Shown piece by piece: positions 53,410-61,444 of a stretch of 64,000 bases of DNA (the first letter of the stretch is position 1; each line of letters begins with the position of its first letter). A program made the position numbers and the translations under genes. The stretch spans positions 1-64,000 of the forward strand of contig NZ_LRXL01000045.1 in assembly GCF_001637325.1 (NCBI RefSeq). Direction: 5' to 3'. Origin of the DNA: Cochleicola gelatinilyticus (GTDB taxonomy: Bacteria; Bacteroidota; Bacteroidia; Flavobacteriales; Flavobacteriaceae). A model generated the notes under the pieces. The model made no database searches. It had not been told where the DNA came from and saw only the letters and a program-made list of their open reading frames with translations.

Positions 53410-53889
53410 ATGAAAAAGATCATATTACTTTTAGTTTTAGGAGCTACCATGTTCGCATGCGGAGTTCCCAAAACTGTACAAGAATCACGTAAGGTTATTA
53501 AAGGATATTGGAATCTTGATAAAATAACTTATAATCAATCAGGAAATTTTAATGTTACAATGTTCAACGATACATCGACAGAATGTTTTGAAGGAACTAC
53601 ATGGAGATTTATTCCAAACAATAATACAGGTGTATATTCGGTAAACGACGCAAATTGTCCTACTGGAGATCGAAATTTCGTTTTTACGATACAAGAGATT
53701 GACCCTAATACTGGATTGTACGATTTTCTTTTAAAGCCTACCAATGCTAAGAATAAATCTGAAGACGATAGAGGTTTCAGATTGCAGTTAAAGCAATTAA
53801 ATGCTAATTCTATGCAATGGCAACAAACGGTAACTTTAGAAGGTGAACCGTTTAAAATTAATATGAACTTTTCTAAAATTGAAGAATAA
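53410..53889 (+). CDS. Lipocalin-like lipoprotein
   Basis: A 159-residue lipoprotein with lipobox MFAC at residues 14-17. The mature protein resembles lipocalin-like domains of Bacteroidota: GYWNLDKITYNQSG, then TWRFIPNNNTG and beta strands with alternating polar and hydrophobic residues. Such proteins may bind small hydrophobic compounds, but no ligand is known. Its stop overlaps the ATG of the OmpA gene by one base, so the two are cotranscribed. Confidence 0.82.
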   Translation: MKKIILLLVLGATMFACGVPKTVQESRKVIKGYWNLDKITYNQSGNFNVTMFNDTSTECFEGTTWRFIPNNNTGVYSVNDANCPTGDRNFVFTIQEIDPNTGLYDFLLKPTNAKNKSEDDRGFRLQLKQLNANSMQWQQTVTLEGEPFKINMNFSKIEE

Positions 53890-54596
53890 TGAAAACATTT
53901 TTTAAACAACTTTCGCTAGCTGGTTTAGCATTAGTATTTATTGCTAGTCTTAGTAGTTGTGAAGCAACACAAAACGCAAATAATAAACAAAAAGGTGCTG
54001 TTATAGGTGCTGCAGGAGGTGCTGTTTTAGGTGCCATTCTTGGGAACAACATCGGTAAAGGTGGAAATGGTGAAATTGGAGCTGTTTTAGGAGGAGTCGT
54101 TGGTGGTACCGCGGGTGTTCTTATTGGTAACAAAATGGACAAACAAGCGCAAAAAATTGAAACTGAAATTCCAGGAGCTCAAGTAGAGCGAGTAGATGAT
54201 GGAATCGTTGTAACATTCGATGAAAACAGTGGAGTTTATTTCGACACCAATAAATATAATATTAATTCAGCATCACAAGTGACTCTCGATAAACTTGCAG
54301 GAGTTTTAAGAGAATATCCAGATACAGATGTATTGGTAGTTGGTCATACAGACAGCACGGGTGCTGACGATTATAATATGACGTTATCTAAGAATAGAGC
54401 GTACGCAGTGACCAATTATTTCACACAGAATAAAGGATTATCTAATTCGCGTTTTACAACCAATTGGTTTGGTGAGCAAAGCCCTGTTGGAGATAATAAC
54501 ACAGTAGATGGACGACAACAAAACCGTCGTGTGAACGTAGTAATTGTGCCGAATGAAAAAATGAAGCAAGATGCCGAGCAAGAAGCTGGTAACTAA
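53889..54596 (+). CDS. OmpA-family lipoprotein with glycine zipper
   Basis: A 235-residue lipoprotein with lipobox near SLSSC (C24). Next comes a glycine-zipper region (about 36-82, repeated GAAGGAVLGAILG and GGVVGGTAGVLIG). The C-terminal OmpA peptidoglycan-binding domain has the VVGHTDSTGADDYN core and the closing NRRVNVVI. It likely links outer membrane to peptidoglycan. It is the last gene of the short run from 53202 and is followed by a strong terminator. Confidence 0.93.
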   Translation: MKTFFKQLSLAGLALVFIASLSSCEATQNANNKQKGAVIGAAGGAVLGAILGNNIGKGGNGEIGAVLGGVVGGTAGVLIGNKMDKQAQKIETEIPGAQVERVDDGIVVTFDENSGVYFDTNKYNINSASQVTLDKLAGVLREYPDTDVLVVGHTDSTGADDYNMTLSKNRAYAVTNYFTQNKGLSNSRFTTNWFGEQSPVGDNNTVDGRQQNRRVNVVIVPNEKMKQDAEQEAGN

Positions 54597-54625
54597 TTAC
54601 TAAGTAGATACCCATCTATTTAATG

Positions 54626-54656
54626 AAGCTCGTTCAAATTTTTTTTGAACGAGCTT
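54626..54656 (+). terminator. Rho-independent terminator
   Basis: A long stem AAGCTCGTTCAAA/TTTGAACGAGCTT is followed by TTTTTT, 30 bp after the OmpA stop. It separates the envelope genes from the polyketide operon. Confidence 0.93.
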
Positions 54657-54677
54657 TTTTTATATCGTTCATAGTTT

Positions 54678-54689: not shown

Positions 54690-55817
54690 ATGCATAACAA
54701 AAAATACGACCTCATTATTATTGGAGCAGGGCTAGCTGGACTTACAGCAGCCATACACCTCTCCAATAATAATCTTAGTATTTTAGTATTAGAGCGACAT
54801 ACTTTTCCACGTCATAAAGTATGTGGAGAATATATATCTAACGAAGTACTGCCTTACCTTAAGCATTTAGGAGTTGATCCTTTACAAGCTGGTGCAAAAA
54901 TGATAGATCAATTTTTAATAAGTAATAAAAAAGGGGCAACGTTAAACACCTCTTTACCTCTTGGAGGATTCGGAATTAGTCGATATGCATTAGATGAGAT
55001 GCTCTACAACAAGTGCAAACAAACTGTCGATTTTGTATTTGAATCTGTTGAAACTGTAAATTTTACTTCGGAAAGATTTACTGTAGAAACGCAGTCTAAA
55101 TCTACTTTTGAAGCCAAATACGTACTAGGGGCTTTCGGGAAACGATCGAACCTCGACCTACATCTGAAGCGCTCTTTTATACAGCAAAAAACTCCTTGGA
55201 TGGCTGTTAAAGCACATTATAAATACGATCTTTCGGAAAAATCGGTACAGCTTCATTCGTTCGATGGAGGCTATTGCGGACTTTCAAAAGTAGAATCAAA
55301 CGCAGTGAATGCTTGTTATTTAACAACAGTATCTTCCTTTAAAAATGCTTCCTCAATCAACGATTTTCAAAATAGAATTCTATCACAAAATCCGCATCTT
55401 CATAAATTTTATTCCGAAGCAATTCCAATTTTCGAAAAACCATTAACGATAAGTCAAATATCATTTCAATCTAAAAATGCTGTTGAAAATCATATTTTTA
55501 TGGTAGGTGATAGTGCAGGATTAATACACCCCTTATGTGGCAACGGAATGGCAATGGCTATTCATAGCGCTAAATTATTTTCAGAGTTGTTTCTGGAAGC
55601 ATATCATTCTAAAAGCGTCTGTAGAGCCGACTTAGAAAAGGAATACAGCAAACGATGGAACGAGACATTTATAAAACGATTACAAGCAGGCGAGCGTATT
55701 CAACGTATCTTACAGCATCCTATTGCAATGAAAGTTGGGTTTGGTATTGCTAAAATTGTTCCTTCAATTCTTTCTCCGATTATACAAAGCACACACGGAA
55801 AGCCTATAGTTGTATGA
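54690..55817 (+). CDS. FAD-dependent oxidoreductase of the polyketide operon
   Basis: A 375-residue flavoprotein of the geranylgeranyl-reductase/PHBH superfamily. It has the dinucleotide motif GAGLAGLTAA at 12-21, a PRHKVCGEYIS motif typical of this group, and the late FAD motif FMVGDSAGLIHPLCGNGMA. In the operon it would hydroxylate or oxidise the aromatic product, as SrsC does in Streptomyces griseus phenolic lipid synthesis. It overlaps the methyltransferase gene by 4 bp and starts a run of six genes. Confidence 0.88.
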   Translation: MHNKKYDLIIIGAGLAGLTAAIHLSNNNLSILVLERHTFPRHKVCGEYISNEVLPYLKHLGVDPLQAGAKMIDQFLISNKKGATLNTSLPLGGFGISRYALDEMLYNKCKQTVDFVFESVETVNFTSERFTVETQSKSTFEAKYVLGAFGKRSNLDLHLKRSFIQQKTPWMAVKAHYKYDLSEKSVQLHSFDGGYCGLSKVESNAVNACYLTTVSSFKNASSINDFQNRILSQNPHLHKFYSEAIPIFEKPLTISQISFQSKNAVENHIFMVGDSAGLIHPLCGNGMAMAIHSAKLFSELFLEAYHSKSVCRADLEKEYSKRWNETFIKRLQAGERIQRILQHPIAMKVGFGIAKIVPSILSPIIQSTHGKPIVV

Positions 55818-56533
55818 CGTATTTCTCTTCAACATATCGTTCTAAAGAACCTGAGTTTATGGATGAATTCGACCTACAAGGAGTCGAAATGGAACGAGTA
55901 TTAACCGATCTAAAGAATGTAAATAGATTATTAGGTGGTAATAAAGTAACCCGAAAAGGAATTGCTTATTTACTTAAAAATGCTCCAAAAAATAAGGTAT
56001 ACACCCTCATCGATATTGGTTGTGGTGATGGAGAAATGCTTCGACAATGTGCTCGTTTCGGAAAATATAATGGGTATAATTTTCAACTCATAGGGATCGA
56101 TGCGAATGGTTATATTTTAAAAGAAGCAAGAAAAAGATCTAGTAACTTTTCAAATATTCAATATCTAAATAACGATTTATTTTCGCCTACGACGACGCTT
56201 CCAGAATGCGATATTGCGTTATGCACTCTGTTCTTACATCATTTTGAAGAAGCTAAAATTATTCAATTACTTACCAAACTTTCCGAAGTATCGAAAGTAG
56301 GGGTTGTGGTTAACGACTTACAACGAAGTCGATTGTCTTTCGTATTATTTTCGGTCGTACGGCATTTTCTATTGCGAACAAAAACAGCTCGTAATGATGG
56401 ATTGGTGTCTATTGCTAGGGGATTTAAACGAAAAGAACTAGAGTTACTTTCAGAAAAAATTCCGAAGCAAACCTCCCGAATTCGATGGAAATGGGCGTTT
56501 CGATATCAATGGATTTTAAAAACAATTAATTAA
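55814..56533 (+). CDS. SAM-dependent methyltransferase of the polyketide operon
   Basis: A 239-residue class I methyltransferase with SAM motif I IDIGCGDGEML near residue 67, an acidic motif II at IGIDANG, and CTLFLHHFEE. It is expected to methylate the aromatic or quinone product; a comparable methyltransferase is SrsB in S. griseus. It overlaps the FAD gene and is followed 15 bp later by the type III polyketide synthase. The exact acceptor atom (C or O) cannot be told. Confidence 0.87.
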   Translation: MTYFSSTYRSKEPEFMDEFDLQGVEMERVLTDLKNVNRLLGGNKVTRKGIAYLLKNAPKNKVYTLIDIGCGDGEMLRQCARFGKYNGYNFQLIGIDANGYILKEARKRSSNFSNIQYLNNDLFSPTTTLPECDIALCTLFLHHFEEAKIIQLLTKLSEVSKVGVVVNDLQRSRLSFVLFSVVRHFLLRTKTARNDGLVSIARGFKRKELELLSEKIPKQTSRIRWKWAFRYQWILKTIN

Positions 56534-56548
56534 TACCAAACACACCAT

Positions 56549-57601
56549 ATGAGTGTAAAAATAACAACTGTAGCCACACAATTACCTCCATATACGAGAG
56601 AAACCACCGAGATTTTACCCTTTGTTGAACAATGGCTGCAGGGGCAAGATTCTAGATTTCAACGAAAAGTGATGAAAATTTTTGAAGGAGCAGGGGTAGA
56701 TCGGCGCTATTCGATTATGGATGCACATGAAGTTTTTCTAAACACTAGTTTTGAGGAGCGAAATGATATCTATGTTCGAGAAATTAAAAAACTTGGACGA
56801 AGATCACTTGAAAAAGCACTTGAAAAAGCACAATGGAATCCAACCGATATCGATTATATAATTACTGTAAGTTGTACAGGTATCATGATTCCTTCTGTAG
56901 ATGCATATCTTATCAACGAACTTAAAATGAGGCAAGATGTAGTGCGTCTTCCAGTTACAGAAATGGGATGTGCCGCTGGGGTTTCGGGGATTATTTATGC
57001 TAAAAATTTTTTGAAAGCCAATCCAGGAAAACGGGCTGCTGTAATTGCTTTAGAATCTCCAACAGCAACATTTCAGCTTGAAGATTATTCGATGGTTAAT
57101 ATAGTTAGTGCTGCCATCTTTGGTGATGGTGCTGCCTGTGTATTAATGTCTTCAAATGAGGACGATCAGGGCCCAGAAATAATTGATGAGGCGATGTATC
57201 ATTTTTATGATGCTACTACCATGATGGGCTTTAAACTAGTGAATACAGGGTTGCAAATGATCCTCGATAAAGAAGTACCTCAAACTATTACAGATCATTT
57301 TCCGAAGATTGTACATCCCTTTTTAAATCAAAATGGAAAAAAGATAGAAAATATTGACCATCTTATTTTTCATCCAGGCGGAAAAAAAATTGTTCAAACC
57401 GTGGAAAAACTTTTTGGAAGCTTAGGAAAGAACATAGACGACACCAAAGAAGTACTGCGACTGTATGGAAATATGAGCAGTGCCACAGTTTTGTATGTGT
57501 TAGAACGTTTTATGGATCGAGGAGTTGAAAAAGGTTCTTTAGGACTTATGTTAAGTTTCGGACCGGGATTTTCGGCACAAAGAGTGTTACTCAAATTTTA
57601 A
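56549..57601 (+). CDS. Type III polyketide synthase
   Basis: A 350-residue chalcone-synthase-like homodimeric enzyme that extends an acyl starter with malonyl-CoA and cyclises the chain. The catalytic triad is visible as C141 (EMGCAAGV), H275 (IFHPGGKK) and N308 (LYGNMSSAT). The DAYLINELKMR segment and SFGPGFSAQ C-terminus are typical of bacterial alkylresorcinol/alkylpyrone synthases. The starter may come from the ketosynthase, dehydratase and ACP encoded directly downstream. Confidence 0.95.
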   Translation: MSVKITTVATQLPPYTRETTEILPFVEQWLQGQDSRFQRKVMKIFEGAGVDRRYSIMDAHEVFLNTSFEERNDIYVREIKKLGRRSLEKALEKAQWNPTDIDYIITVSCTGIMIPSVDAYLINELKMRQDVVRLPVTEMGCAAGVSGIIYAKNFLKANPGKRAAVIALESPTATFQLEDYSMVNIVSAAIFGDGAACVLMSSNEDDQGPEIIDEAMYHFYDATTMMGFKLVNTGLQMILDKEVPQTITDHFPKIVHPFLNQNGKKIENIDHLIFHPGGKKIVQTVEKLFGSLGKNIDDTKEVLRLYGNMSSATVLYVLERFMDRGVEKGSLGLMLSFGPGFSAQRVLLKF

Positions 57602-57650
57602 TTCTGAAATTTAAAAAGAGTATCTTTAAATACTAAATGAAAGAATCTCT

Positions 57651-58130
57651 ATGAAACCGGAACAAATTCAAAATGAACTTCCGTACGCAAAACCGTTTTT
57701 ATTTGTAGACAAACTAGAGCATGTCGATGAAAATGGTGCACGCGGACATTATACTTTTCCTGAATCTTCCTTTTTTTATGAAGGGCATTTTCCTGAATAT
57801 AAAATCACTCCGGGAGTTATTTTAACCGAATGCATGGCACAGATCGGCGTTGTAGCGCTGGGAATCTATATCTATAATCTTGAATTTCCAGGAGCCCGAA
57901 TACGAATGGTAGATGCCGCAGATATTGATGTAAGCATTGCTCTAGCAGAAACACATATCGACTTTAAAAAACCGGTCTTTCCAAATGAGAAAGTGACCGT
58001 AATTTCAACCAAAGAGTATTATCGTTTTAACAAGCTTAAATGCAAAGTTGAAATGCGGAAAGAAAATGGCGATCTTGCCTGCCGTGGTTTTATAAGCGGT
58101 GTAATTATTCCACAAAGTCGACGTGGATAA
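57651..58130 (+). CDS. FabZ-like 3-hydroxyacyl-ACP dehydratase
   Basis: A 159-residue hot-dog-fold dehydratase. The catalytic pair is H46 in FFYEGHFP and E60 in GVILTEC, the usual FabZ/FabA layout. It would dehydrate 3-hydroxyacyl intermediates on the operon's own carrier protein. Its stop overlaps the GTG start of the ketosynthase by 8 bp, so translation is coupled. Confidence 0.9.
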   Translation: MKPEQIQNELPYAKPFLFVDKLEHVDENGARGHYTFPESSFFYEGHFPEYKITPGVILTECMAQIGVVALGIYIYNLEFPGARIRMVDAADIDVSIALAETHIDFKKPVFPNEKVTVISTKEYYRFNKLKCKVEMRKENGDLACRGFISGVIIPQSRRG

Positions 58131-59397
58131 ACAGCGAGTTGTTATAACAGGATTGGGGGTGGTAGCGCCTAATGGTACAACACTCTCACAATTTAATGAG
58201 GCGATACGCTCTGGTGTGTCTGGAATTCAACACTATCCACATCTTGAAGAATTGAGCTTTTCGTGCTGCATAGGCGGAATTCCCTCTATTTCTGAAGAAA
58301 GAAAAAGAGAGTATTTTACAGAATTACAGCTTCGAAATTTTAAAAGTAGCGGCATATTATATGGCGTTATTGCTGGGCTTGATGCTTTGGAAGACGCTGG
58401 GATTCAACGCGCAGAGAAAAATGCTGATCCGTTATGGGATCTGGGAATAATCTTCGGAACAGGAACCAGTGGGGTTGACAAATTCAGAGAAGCGATTTAT
58501 AAAGTAGATGAAGGAAATGTACGTCGTTTGGGAAGTACTACCGTGGTACAAACAATGGCAAGCGGCATTAGCGCTTATCTGGGTGGCATGATTGGAGCTG
58601 GCAATGTGGTTACCACAAATTCTTCAGCATGTGCTACCGGTGCCGAAGCAATTCTTTTAGCGTATGAACGTATAGCCTACGGCAAAGCGCAACAAGTGCT
58701 TTGTGGAAGTACAAGCGACGATGGACCTTACTTATGGGGTGGTTTCGACGCAATGAAAGTAATAACATATAAACATAACGATGCGCCTAAGAAAGGATCT
58801 CGCCCAATGAGTGCCACAGCAAGCGGATTTGTGCCTGGAAGTGGGGCAGGAGCCCTCATTCTTGAATCTTTAGAAAGTGCTGAGCATCGAGGAGCTAAAA
58901 TCTATGCTGAAGTTTTAGGTGGAGCTATAAATAGTGGAGGACAACGAGGTGAAGGTAGCATGACCGCTCCTAATAACAAAGCAGTGCAACGTTGTATTAC
59001 CGATGCATTAAAAAATGCTAAGATAAATCCTTCTGAAATAGATTACATTAATGGACATCTTACCGCAACTGTAAAAGATCCCGTAGAAATTAACAATTGG
59101 TGTGCTGCATTAAACAGAAGCGGGAAAGACTTTCCATACATTAATTCGCTTAAAGGTATGGTAGGGCATTGTCTTGCAGCAAGTGGTAGTATAGAAATAG
59201 TTTCAGCAATTCTACAATTAGATCAAGGGTTTGTGTTTCCAAATATAAATTGTGAAGATCTGCATCCTGAAATCTTATCTAAAGTTGATGCTGAGAAGAT
59301 TCCGAAGCAATTAGTGAAAACTACGTTAAAAACCATTGCAAAAGCGAGTTTTGGTTTTGGCGATGTAAATGCCTGTATTATCTTTAAAAAAAAATAA
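58123..59397 (+). CDS. Beta-ketoacyl-ACP synthase (FabF-like)
   Basis: A 424-residue condensing enzyme with catalytic C170 (SSACATGAEA), H312 and H349 (GMVGHCLAASG). The second motif reads NGHLTATVKDPVE in place of the usual NAHGTSTxxND, a sign of a specialised group. Start GTG 58123 is required by the overlap with the dehydratase stop. It likely elongates an acyl chain dedicated to the type III synthase. No ketoreductase gene is in the operon, so that step must be supplied elsewhere. Confidence 0.92.
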   Translation: MDKQRVVITGLGVVAPNGTTLSQFNEAIRSGVSGIQHYPHLEELSFSCCIGGIPSISEERKREYFTELQLRNFKSSGILYGVIAGLDALEDAGIQRAEKNADPLWDLGIIFGTGTSGVDKFREAIYKVDEGNVRRLGSTTVVQTMASGISAYLGGMIGAGNVVTTNSSACATGAEAILLAYERIAYGKAQQVLCGSTSDDGPYLWGGFDAMKVITYKHNDAPKKGSRPMSATASGFVPGSGAGALILESLESAEHRGAKIYAEVLGGAINSGGQRGEGSMTAPNNKAVQRCITDALKNAKINPSEIDYINGHLTATVKDPVEINNWCAALNRSGKDFPYINSLKGMVGHCLAASGSIEIVSAILQLDQGFVFPNINCEDLHPEILSKVDAEKIPKQLVKTTLKTIAKASFGFGDVNACIIFKKK

Positions 59398-59400
59398 ACT

Positions 59401-59649
59401 ATGACCACCGAAGTTATTTATGCTAAACTGCTTCCTATTATAAAACGATATTTGCCAGAAGATGTTGATACTAATACGATACAGCCCGATAGTGATCTAA
59501 CAGATGAGCTTAATATAAACTCTGCACACCTTGTAGATGTCGTACTCGATGTAGAGGATGAGTTTGAAATAGAACTTGAAAATAGCGATATCGAGCAATT
59601 AAGAACAATGAATGATGCCATTGCAATTATTCAGAAAAAAATAAGTTAA
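59401..59649 (+). CDS. Acyl carrier protein of the polyketide operon
   Basis: An 82-residue ACP. The phosphopantetheine serine is S41 in NINSAHLVDVV, where most fatty acid ACPs have DSLDTVE; the acidic recognition helix (DVEDEFEIELE) is kept. It starts 3 bp after the ketosynthase stop. The altered motif suggests it is used only by the enzymes of this operon. Confidence 0.9.
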   Translation: MTTEVIYAKLLPIIKRYLPEDVDTNTIQPDSDLTDELNINSAHLVDVVLDVEDEFEIELENSDIEQLRTMNDAIAIIQKKIS

Positions 59650-59694: not shown

Positions 59695-60216
59695 ATGATT
59701 TTTATGAATTTCAGACTCTTATTACTTTGCTGTATATTTTTATGTATATCGAATGTACAAGCGCAAGAAACTACCGAAACACTTTTAACAGAGGCTTACG
59801 CTAAAGCACAAGCTGAAAACAAAAATGTTTTTGTGAAATTTGAGGCTTCATGGTGTGGTTGGTGTAAACGGATGCAAACACAAATGAAAGATTCGGAGCT
59901 GGCTCCATTATTTGATGCAAATTACGTGATCGTAACCTTGGTTACTAAAGAAACTAAACGCTTAAAAGGTCTGGAAAACCCAGGAGCTTTCGAATTGTTA
60001 GAAAAACATAAAGGAGTTAAAGCTGGACTGCCTTTCTGGCTAATTTTTGATGCTAAAGGAAATTTAATTGGAGATTCGCTTGATGCTGAAGGAAATAATT
60101 TAGGTTGTCCTAGTGCGGTTAATGAAGTTAGTGTTTTTCTTGAAACCCTTCAGAAGACCTCTAATTTATCGGAAACAGAGCTTCAAATGATTGGAGAAAC
60201 ATTCCGTTCAGAATAA
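59695..60216 (+). CDS. Exported thioredoxin-family protein
   Basis: A 173-residue periplasmic protein with a signal peptide (about 1-24, ending in QAQ) and a thioredoxin-like fold carrying C54-G-W-C57, in the context FEASWCGWCKRM. The sequence is closer to the DsbD-gamma/thioredoxin_7 group than to TlpA. It should reduce or hold disulfides of exported proteins. An alternative ATG is at 59704. It lies 45 bp after the ACP gene, but nothing ties it to the polyketide pathway. Confidence 0.87.
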   Translation: MIFMNFRLLLLCCIFLCISNVQAQETTETLLTEAYAKAQAENKNVFVKFEASWCGWCKRMQTQMKDSELAPLFDANYVIVTLVTKETKRLKGLENPGAFELLEKHKGVKAGLPFWLIFDAKGNLIGDSLDAEGNNLGCPSAVNEVSVFLETLQKTSNLSETELQMIGETFRSE

Positions 60217-60223
60217 CTAGTTC

Positions 60224-61444
60224 ATGTTTCACATACATCTTCCGAAGTTTGCACCACAACGCCTAGCTATAAAACTTAATGTAGCTGGAGAAAGAAGTGT
60301 GCGCAATGGGCATCCGTGGATTTTTTCAGAAAGCATAGAAAAAATAAATAAAGAAGCACATTCTGGGGATGTTGCAATTATCTTTAGTCATTCTAAAAAT
60401 AAACCTATTGGAGTGGGATTATACGATCCCGACTCTCCAATTCGGCTCAAAATGTTGCATAGTGGGGGAGGTGCCCAAATTAATTCAGCCTTTTTTGCAG
60501 ATAGAATTGAACGAGCCTTTTCGCTGCGTCACGAGTTATTAGAAACGAATACCAATAGTTATCGACTACTTTTTGGAGAGAACGATGGTTTTCCAGGATT
60601 AATTGCAGATGTCTATGCGGGAGTACTTGTAATTAAATTATATTCCACTATTTGGTTTCCTTACATTGAGCAAATTATTGAGCATTTAATTACTATTTCA
60701 AATTGCGAAGCCGTAGTTATTCGTTTAAGCAGACGGCTTCAGCAAACAGAAAGTTATGGGCTTAAAGATGGAACCATTTTTTATGGTAATCTAGACAATG
60801 AAACAGTTCATTTTATTGAGCACGGAGTACATTTTTCAGCACATGTAATTCTTGGACATAAGACAGGTTATTTTTTAGATCATCGAGAGAATCGAAGACA
60901 AGTAGGGCTGCTTTCCAAGAGTAAAAAAGTATTGGACGTATTTTCGTATGCTGGCGGTTTTTCGGTACACGCATTGGCAAATGGAGCGACCGAAGTTACA
61001 AGTGTAGACATTAGCAAACAAGCCTTAGAGTTGGCTGTAGAAAATGGAAAACTTAATGAATTTAAAGGGGTACATACCACACTTGCAGGTGATGCGTTTA
61101 CTGTCTTGCAACAACTTATAGAGCAAAAGAAAACCTTCGACGTGGTAGTTATCGATCCTCCTTCATTCGCGAAGAGTAAGAAAGAGGTGGATATTGCTAA
61201 AAAAAAATATTCACAATTAGCGAAACTAGGAATTGCACTTACCGCGAAAAATGGGTTGCTAGTTTTGGCATCATGTTCTTCACGCATTACTTCTGAAGCG
61301 TTTTTTGCCATCAACGAAACAGTTCTTAATTCTCAGCATCGAAATTATAACGTTGTACAAAAGACGAACCACGATATTGATCATCCTATTTCTTTTTCTG
61401 AAGGAGCCTATTTAAAATGTGGTTATTATCGTTTCATTAATTAA
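60224..61444 (+). CDS. RlmI-like 23S rRNA m5C methyltransferase
   Basis: A 406-residue PUA-plus-Rossmann methyltransferase. The PUA domain (about 14-95) starts at AGERSVRNGHPWIF, and the SAM domain has LDVFSYAGGFS and the active motif IDPPSFAKSKKEV. E. coli RlmI (YccW) methylates C1962 of 23S rRNA; the close architecture makes this the likely role here. It ends before a perfect palindromic terminator shared with the minus-strand genes. Confidence 0.88.
   Translation: MFHIHLPKFAPQRLAIKLNVAGERSVRNGHPWIFSESIEKINKEAHSGDVAIIFSHSKNKPIGVGLYDPDSPIRLKMLHSGGGAQINSAFFADRIERAFSLRHELLETNTNSYRLLFGENDGFPGLIADVYAGVLVIKLYSTIWFPYIEQIIEHLITISNCEAVVIRLSRRLQQTESYGLKDGTIFYGNLDNETVHFIEHGVHFSAHVILGHKTGYFLDHRENRRQVGLLSKSKKVLDVFSYAGGFSVHALANGATEVTSVDISKQALELAVENGKLNEFKGVHTTLAGDAFTVLQQLIEQKKTFDVVVIDPPSFAKSKKEVDIAKKKYSQLAKLGIALTAKNGLLVLASCSSRITSEAFFAINETVLNSQHRNYNVVQKTNHDIDHPISFSEGAYLKCGYYRFIN

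Follow-up and report, generated by a model that had tools for sequence, protein, structure and literature searches.

A conserved type III polyketide synthase operon in Flavobacteriaceae with a candidate cassette for acyl supply

The window analyzed here, the whole stretch of 64,000 nucleotides at positions 1 to 64,000 of contig NZ_LRXL01000045.1 (assembly GCF_001637325.1), comes from the flavobacterium Cochleicola gelatinilyticus and contains, at positions 54690-59649, six closely spaced genes built around a type III polyketide synthase (PKS). A preliminary description, made from the sequence alone, had proposed that these genes form a compact operon in which the synthase is accompanied by its own fatty-acid-type elongation parts. 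The six-gene operon is real, as all open reading frames are found on the + strand where they were described and profile scans assign them to the families named at the time. The features are the following:

54690-55817, + strand: flavin adenine dinucleotide (FAD)-dependent oxidoreductase (flavin monooxygenase- or geranylgeranyl-reductase-like by family scans), from sequence and model a likely ring hydroxylase
55814-56533, + strand: S-adenosylmethionine (SAM)-dependent methyltransferase (MT), by family scans
56549-57601, + strand: type III PKS, by family scans, with catalytic Cys141, His275 and Asn308
57602-57650, + strand: gap of 49 bp, at which 72 of 80 named relatives carry the gene of a FabL-like enoyl reductase of the short-chain dehydrogenase/reductase (SDR) type
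57651-58130, + strand: FabZ-like hotdog dehydratase (DH), by family scans, with His46 and Glu60
58123-59397, + strand: FabF-like ketosynthase (KS) of a distinct clade, GTG start, with Cys170, His312, Lys344 and His349 and the motifs GHLTAT and GFGDVN
59401-59649, + strand: acyl carrier protein (ACP), by a PP-binding match, with phosphopantetheine site Ser41
54625-54657, + strand: terminator-like hairpin (14-bp stem plus T run) from a consensus scan, separating the operon from the OmpA-family gene upstream

The genes are tightly packed: FAD and MT overlap by 4 bp and DH and KS by 8 bp, and the distances from MT to PKS, PKS to DH and KS to ACP are 15, 49 and 3 bp. The catalytic residues of PKS, DH, KS and ACP are intact. 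Specifically, the PKS matches Chal_sti_synt_N and Chal_sti_synt_C (2.6e-21 and 7.2e-21; PF00195 and PF02797 above cut-off) and has the chalcone/stilbene synthase fold with its triad C141/H275/N308 invariant in 18 of 18 sequences. All 50 Foldseek matches listed for its AF2 model (pLDDT 83.9) are type III PKSs, with CylI on top and Pks11 likewise among the best. By sequence, its best PDB match is Pks11, an alkylpyrone synthase, and its best NCBIfam model is DpgA, at 175 bits and below the cut-off of 425. The DH has a FabA-like match (3.9e-9), with the FabZ models below cut-off, and conserves His46 and Glu60 in 17 of 17 sequences. The KS matches both ketoacyl-synt domains (N and C) and comes closest to FabF, but at 274.7 bits versus a cut-off of 493.75 it does not qualify as a housekeeping FabF; its C170, H312, K344 and H349 are conserved in 93 of 93 sequences. 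In the ACP (PP-binding match 7.4e-6), Ser41 is conserved in 16 of 16.

The two putative tailoring enzymes likewise keep the glycines of their cofactor-site motifs. The FAD enzyme combines a FAD_binding_3 match with the geranylgeranyl-reductase-like model TIGR02032 (106 bits, below the cut-off of 158.8), and its GxGxxG glycines G12, G14 and G17 are invariant in 16 sequences; its AF2 model (pLDDT 88.2) is most similar in Foldseek to flavin halogenases and 3-hydroxybenzoate 6-hydroxylase (TMq about 0.7-0.78, identity 16-18%). A halogenase is the top fold match, but the protein lacks WxWxIP, the flavin halogenase motif, and this function is not claimed. The MT has a Methyltransf_25 match, PRK06202 as its nearest NCBIfam model (123 bits, below the cut-off of 243) and SAM-site glycines G69, G71 and G73 that are invariant in 16 sequences. 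The FAD, MT and PKS proteins are thereby the enzyme kinds of the srs-type operons (srs, hid, pkq), as the preliminary description had recognized for srsABC.

Comparison of gene neighborhoods across Flavobacteriaceae, which that description had named as a way to check the operon, reveals a gene order that recurs in 80 named loci, the best 80 of 463 relatives returned by a scan of public genomes with the PKS; all counts of named loci refer to these 80. The series PKS-(SDR)-DH-KS-ACP, in this order and on one strand, is present in 76, among them two that a contig end truncates upstream and L104, whose KS is a fragment. PKS-SDR-DH-KS with no ACP match is seen in L091, where the contig stops inside the KS, and in L096; FAD-MT-PKS-SDR with none of DH, KS and ACP is seen in L112, which a contig end truncates, and in L071. 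In the 72 loci with six measured genes, the window excluded, median gaps are -4 bp for FAD/MT (overlapping in 64 of 72), 0 for MT/PKS, 2 for DH/KS, 7.5 for KS/ACP and 800 bp for PKS-DH; 8 of 81 loci were dropped from the gap and distance statistics. Distances of the operon genes are correlated (Spearman 0.54 to 0.83 in 73 loci, 0.82 for PKS-KS), a result that shared descent alone would also give. A few copies are possibly broken, or else reflect sequencing error: L147 (G149) has its PKS and FAD matches in two frames, L150 (G204) has its KS in two pieces, L104 retains a KS fragment, and G754:C77 has one stop within the KS match.

Evidence for a functional unit comes from the strict co-occurrence of PKS and KS. 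Among 299 Flavobacteriaceae genomes, the PKS was detected at E<=1e-40 in 103, one of which (G071, 31% identity) belongs to another clade, and the KS at E<=1e-100, with at most 5 candidates scored per genome, in 100, every one of them PKS-positive. This amounts to a KS in 100 of the 102 genomes with the PKS clade versus 0 of the 197 others, in a set of related genomes that are not 299 independent trials. The refuting case named in the preliminary description, homologous neighborhoods in which KS, DH and ACP do not accompany the PKS, is thus not what this sample shows: two PKS-clade genomes lack the KS, G137 and G292; the latter is 76% complete and has its PKS on a 4.6-kb contig, with no KS at E<=1e-100. 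At the level of genera, this kind of PKS occurs in 84 and this kind of KS in 82 of the 236 sampled, which together with the recurring gene order marks the operon as more than chance. Because the KS is nearly always found with the PKS, and DH and ACP are adjacent in 76 of 80 loci, the pathway-specific acyl starter suggested at the outset is still the best reading of KS, DH and ACP.

The position of the two genes points in the same direction. In the 100 genomes with both, PKS and KS lie within 4.4 kb of each other in 96, 354.5 kb apart in G189 and on different contigs in three, of which G065 may be an assembly break. In G189, G143 and G275, FAD-MT-PKS-SDR lies at one site and DH-KS-ACP at another (with a phosphopantetheinyl transferase (PPTase) gene in G275, whose PKS contig ends about 1.8 kb past the SDR), and both halves are retained in all three split operons. 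In view of the co-occurrence and the retention of both halves, coincidental neighbors are rejected as an explanation. In a sample of 395 genomes across the phylum Bacteroidota, which overlaps the family sample, the PKS clade (>=66% identity) and KSs of >=60% identity are present in the same 33 genomes. The full operon was also found in other families, at L120, L121 and L122 in the phylum sample and later at L217 and L218 in family f4, where it is complete with SDR, ACP and PPTase; a Saprospiraceae metagenome-assembled genome (L096) has the operon up to the KS on a 13-kb contig for which misbinning is possible. Since it is found in several other families, the operon seems to pass from one family to another in one piece. 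A plasmid search with the KS gave matches below 60% identity only, the ten listed being at 33-36%.

The operon KS is distinct from the other KSs of its hosts. On a KS tree, all 25 operon copies sampled group together (100/100) at the end of a long stem, and the 19 paralogues taken from six genomes fall outside this group; 11 of 30 candidate loci had been left out of the tree (large multidomain PKSs in 4, operon KSs that were present already in 5, very weak matches in 2). Among the paralogues are the presumed housekeeping FabF of the window genome (C25:911249, whose Pfam match is stronger) and KSs from a KS-rich cluster; flexirubin or aryl-polyene type was assigned to them provisionally, by genome clustering. 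The operon KSs have the motifs GHLTAT and FGFGDVN in common, in which all 93 sequences compared carry L313, D414 and V415 (6 of the 99 extracted KSs, partial or broken, were dropped); these residues are absent from the 13 paralogues compared. The KS trees thus reject the idea that the operon KS closely copies another KS of its genome. A second KS-rich cluster of the window genome, perhaps of aryl-polyene type, lies outside the window (G000 C25:1159298-1165327).

The window operon is a reduced form of the usual operon, since the SDR of most relatives is absent and a search of the genome gave no close copy of it. Of the 80 named loci, 72 carry the SDR gene downstream of the PKS and upstream of the DH, and 8 lack it; the 800-bp space between PKS and DH in the relatives read corresponds to this short-chain reductase gene. 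Its best NCBIfam model is the FabL enoyl-ACP reductase, at 137 bits and short of the equivalog cut-off of 328, and its best PDB match is FabL 3oic (1.1e-36; next 1.4e-26). Y159 and K166 are invariant in 14 of 14 SDRs, which gives the YX6K active-site spacing described for enoyl reductases (PMC9260719). Neither the window genome (best match 28% identity) nor the Ulvibacter genome with locus L060 (G062, 27-28%) yielded a close copy, and four other relatives have copies at 67-70%. The SDR is absent in 11 rows of a 100-row PKS tree (98 different sequences, with a few genomes present twice; 3 of 102 PKSs, L034, L117 and L147, dropped as partial or broken). As the fewest changes that explain this pattern are 5, at least 4 of them forced by well-supported branches, the SDR has probably been lost repeatedly. 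A PPTase gene follows the ACP in 41 of the 80 loci, with a Pfam ACPS match in L067; the window operon has no such gene, and its genome a single PF01648 match, at C25:547001. As such, the idea that the operon has its own elongation parts is borne out for KS, DH and ACP, and the set is only partial: no ketoreductase was seen, and the SDR and PPTase of relatives are absent.

The gap between PKS and DH seems to be a point of insertion and breakage. Transposase-like open reading frames, one family by eye, lie there in L102 (11085-11669), L105 (11114-11677) and L067 (12022-12582); in the first two, both from Polaribacter, they replace the lost SDR, and in L067 the frame follows the SDR.

KS, DH and ACP are also reused in other settings. 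The phylum search revealed five genomes with KSs of 48-51% identity and no PKS of the operon clade. At L202 and L203, an SDR-DH-KS-ACP-PPTase cassette is divergent from a gene set with DarB (634.8 bits in L202, cut-off 550, together with a DarH at 453.7, cut-off 300; the DarB of L203 is also above cut-off), in which a 300-residue protein before DarB, with no model match, was taken as DarA by position. DarB is found in 33 of the 395 phylum genomes, most of them without the cassette arrangement. At L204-L206, DH-KS-ACP (in L205 also SDR) lies beside GNAT-like and GT2-like proteins and may provide acyl chains specifically for a different lipid. In two of the families, query genomes included, KS matches number 10 in 79 genomes (f4) and 4 in 77 (f24). 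Ten new loci were read: L211, L212, L213 and L215 are of the DAR type with SDR, DH, KS, ACP and PPTase; L214 has such a cassette on a contig that ends just beyond the SDR; L217 and L218 hold the full PKS operon; L216 has DH-KS-ACP with other neighbors, L219 DH-KS-KS, and L220 is of the GNAT type. In six DAR-type loci (L202, L203, L211, L212, L213 and L215) the cassette is head to head with darA/darB-type genes. The stretches fetched for DAR-type loci gave no match to the MT, FAD or PKS queries, and the window genome gave no DarB match at E<=1e-60 (4 of 9 candidates scored).

Two small conserved proteins, of 166 aa (no model match) and 145 aa, belong to the dar-type locus L202 (7776-15544), and they accompany the cassette and darA/darB/darH-type genes at L202, L203, L211, L212, L213 and L215 (families f3 and f4). 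The GNAT-like protein, of about 380 residues, lies beside DH-KS-ACP in L204, L205, L206 and L220, with the GT2-like protein in the first three; in L205, a gene of the serine-palmitoyltransferase/BioF-like kind is also located at a distance of 4-5 kb.

When the first five cassette loci are added to a KS tree, the KSs of DAR, GNAT and PKS settings form one clade (100/100), with the PKS-linked clade inside it (98/98). Of 16 KS proteins from cassette loci, 15 contain GHLT[AGS]T and 14 contain GFGD[VI]N; L219a has neither motif and L205 lacks the second. Given this joint clade and the common motifs, the sequences indicate that the cassette is homologous throughout and has been recruited to three or more settings. 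The preliminary description had treated KS, DH and ACP as an addition to the PKS operon; they do nearly always travel with the PKS, but they constitute a portable cassette that is also found at darA/darB and in a third context. A wider reading, which is tentative and has the odds somewhat against it, is that a portable Bacteroidota cassette has been plugged into two unrelated ways of forming a resorcinol, by type III PKS and by DarB/DarA, and into at least one GNAT/glycosyltransferase locus, and that it powers, in about one third of the sampled genomes of Flavobacteriaceae, a type II-style analog of the ars system, whose methylated phenolic lipid or lipoquinone would be a standard membrane component or electron carrier.

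These other settings raise the question whether cassette and PKS are functionally linked at all. The cassette could make a special membrane fatty acid and share the operon with the PKS by chance: its shorter form beside GNAT-like and GT2 genes, without a PKS partner nearby, can serve other lipids, and G137 and L071 keep the PKS half alone. This is nevertheless very improbable in view of the co-occurrence (100/102 versus 0/197), the retention of both halves after splits and their joint presence in other families.

The next PKSs in the phylum listing are at most 38% identical to the operon PKS, and no KS, DH or ACP was found near the PKS in the 17 such loci read or in G071; among these loci, three (L135-L137) have a PKS-MT-FAD trio. 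On a PKS tree, the 22 sequences sampled from operons group together (100/99), and the PKSs of these trios, 28-31% identical to the operon PKS, make up a second clade; because of its long branches, the tree is read for clades and not for sister order. In family f24, L208, L209 and L210 have a type III PKS (29-31% identical) beside an MT match, with no FAD match, and their genomes are those with the GNAT-type cassette elsewhere (L205, L204 and L206).

Comparison with known systems shows parts of known kinds in a combination that is new, namely a presumed ars-like function from separate proteins, joined to a trio like those of srs, hid and pkq. In Azotobacter vinelandii, arsABCD comprises the fatty-acid synthase (FAS) ArsA, type III PKSs and the PPTase ArsD and is described as producing alkylresorcinols and alkylpyrones (PMC4824345). 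As there, what is probably a dedicated acyl synthesis is joined to a type III PKS, and a PPTase is also present in 41 of the 80 relatives; in contrast to the type I FAS protein of ars, the operon has separate type II-like KS, DH and ACP (usually with a FabL-like SDR) and a single PKS, plus FAD enzyme and MT. With no dedicated type I FAS, and no PPTase in the window operon, it would be a functional counterpart and not a member of ars, and the best reading by analogy is a counterpart of arsABCD built from separate proteins. The srsABC, pkqABC and hidABC operons and the planctomycete trios have type III PKS, MT and oxidoreductase in one operon, as is the case here, whereas the published descriptions at hand mention no KS, DH, enoyl reductase or ACP. 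Such trios are reported to yield alkylresorcinols in planctomycetes (PMC10896814), quinones in Streptomyces (PMC9927152) and, elsewhere, alkylresorcinols, their methylated forms and quinones (PMC10896814; PMC9927152). The Bacteroidota trios without a cassette nearby (L135-L137) differ in that their PKSs fall in a clade apart from the operon PKS.

Two further systems resemble the operon in how the chain would be handled. The dar clusters adjoin, at the six loci described above, a homologous SDR-DH-KS-ACP-PPTase cassette with DarB- and DarH-type genes, but form their ring by DarB/DarA and not by a type III PKS; for Azoarcus, KS and ACP genes have been noted near the dar genes (PMC3949708). In the cylindrocyclophane (cyl) clusters, a chain on a carrier protein is handed to a type III PKS, CylI, which can use ACP-bound chains according to PMC8086630 and is the closest structural match of the operon PKS; these cyanobacterial clusters differ by type I PKSs and a halogenase, genes that this operon does not contain. 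Flexirubin and aryl-polyene clusters likewise employ separate KS, DH and ACP proteins in Bacteroidota (PMC3992019), but the operon KS belongs to a clade that excludes all remaining KSs sampled from six genomes, some of which are putatively from such clusters. Flavobacteriaceae type III PKS clusters are already known as cluster predictions (PMC7440613, PMC6139392), and a survey of 66 bacteria lists them as second commonest in the family, at 9% versus 44% for terpenes (PMC7440613). In the open-licence PMC literature, within the text accessible there, no report was found on this gene set, the KS clade, the product or the sharing with darA/darB, nor one assigning a product to a Flavobacteriaceae type III PKS cluster.

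Taken together, the data fit a model, to which we assign a probability of roughly 60%, in which this is a phenolic-lipid operon whose cassette feeds an acyl chain to the type III PKS and whose ring is then methylated and hydroxylated. Specifically, KS and DH would work with the housekeeping malonyl-ACP transacylase and ketoreductase to build an acyl chain on the dedicated ACP; in the window genome the housekeeping enoyl reductase would probably be used as well, because the FabL-like one has been lost. The PKS would then take the ACP-bound chain directly as starter, add malonyl units and close the ring, more likely to a resorcinol than to a pyrone. MT and FAD enzyme would subsequently methylate and hydroxylate this ring, and the methylated hydroxy-alkylresorcinol could oxidise to a quinone. 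By analogy with the trios, the product is probably a methylated, oxidised alkylresorcinol or its quinone; the class itself (alkylresorcinol, quinone or pyrone) cannot be named from sequence, as the preliminary description held, and chain length and biological role are parts of the proposal that we infer. We know of no product of this operon. The strongest hint to the acyl-supply role is the dar setting of the cassette: dialkylresorcinols are reported to form by condensation of two intermediates of fatty-acid metabolism (PMC3949708), and as KS and DH make such intermediates, the cassette may by analogy supply an ACP-bound acyl chain to the PKS.

Several observations weigh against this phenolic-lipid model. 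To our knowledge, no experiment ties the operon to any lipid. The cassette is not strictly needed by the PKS half, because FAD-MT-PKS-SDR is kept in G137 (99% complete) with no KS at E<=1e-100 and in L071 (Subsaximicrobium) with no DH, KS or ACP in the 10 kb downstream. The SDR sits with the PKS half in 3 of 3 split operons and may for this reason act on the PKS product and not on the acyl chain, and no ketoreductase candidate besides the SDR was noticed in the operon. The nearest characterised PKS sequence is the pyrone synthase Pks11, with the best NCBIfam model, DpgA, below cut-off, and it is possible that the FAD enzyme reduces rather than hydroxylates, its best NCBIfam model being geranylgeranyl-reductase-like. 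Furthermore, the cassette is not required for the dar ring, since darA and darB alone are reported to suffice for a dialkylresorcinol on heterologous expression (PMC3992019).

The similarity to Pks11, which is the best PDB sequence match and among the best structural matches, lends itself to a model with the same acyl supply in which the PKS closes an alpha-pyrone (lactone) and MT and FAD enzyme decorate an alkylpyrone. We consider this rather unlikely: the top structural match, CylI, is a resorcinol former, the cassette's other home is a resorcinol pathway, and the PKS-MT-oxidoreductase trio is, in the reports available, the resorcinol/quinone arrangement of planctomycetes, cyanobacteria and actinobacteria. 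By presumed numbering, Met237 of the PKS would lie at the place of Phe265 of chalcone synthase, as reported for HidC. Residues proposed in the literature for ring type are Trp281 (PMC9927152) and Phe265 of chalcone synthase (PMC8086630).

The order of the two halves could also be reversed, with a DpgA-like PKS making a small aromatic starter from malonyl-CoA; once loaded onto the ACP, this starter would be elongated by KS and DH, and an aryl-polyene or aryl-alkyl chain would result. DpgA as best NCBIfam model (175 bits, below 425), a related Aequorivita cluster reported as T3pks-arylpolyene (PMC6139392) and a window form without a dedicated enoyl reductase would agree with this order. It is nonetheless distinctly unlikely, as neither the six genes nor the relatives' SDR and PPTase include an aryl-loading ligase or acyltransferase, an enoyl-reductase-like gene in 72 of 80 relatives favors a saturated chain, the KS clade lies apart from further KS groups in the genomes that carry it, and a cassette beside darA/darB would need to supply acyl chains.

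If the phenolic-lipid model is correct, many Flavobacteriaceae type III PKS clusters would represent a single conserved lipid pathway equipped with an acyl supply of its own, and the acyl-supply cassette would be exchangeable between ring-forming enzymes of different families. This would be useful for pathway engineering and for naming clusters that are currently labelled T3PKS or T3pks-arylpolyene.

Around the operon, the hairpin listed above ends 32 bp 5' of the first operon ATG; such hairpin sites number 6 in 5.6 kb versus 3.7 expected from shuffles, and one alone is no sign of function. A promoter scan of the operon was set aside, as it relied on the sigma-70 consensus and the host belongs to Bacteroidota. 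A thioredoxin-like gene at 59695-60216 has no match in the loci searched. The flanking genes at 53889-54596 and 60224-61444 belong to flanks that vary by clade among the named loci. Where an OmpA-family gene precedes the operon, often with an RlmI-like gene downstream, there is no PPTase match, and the 41 named loci with a PPTase have flanks of other kinds.

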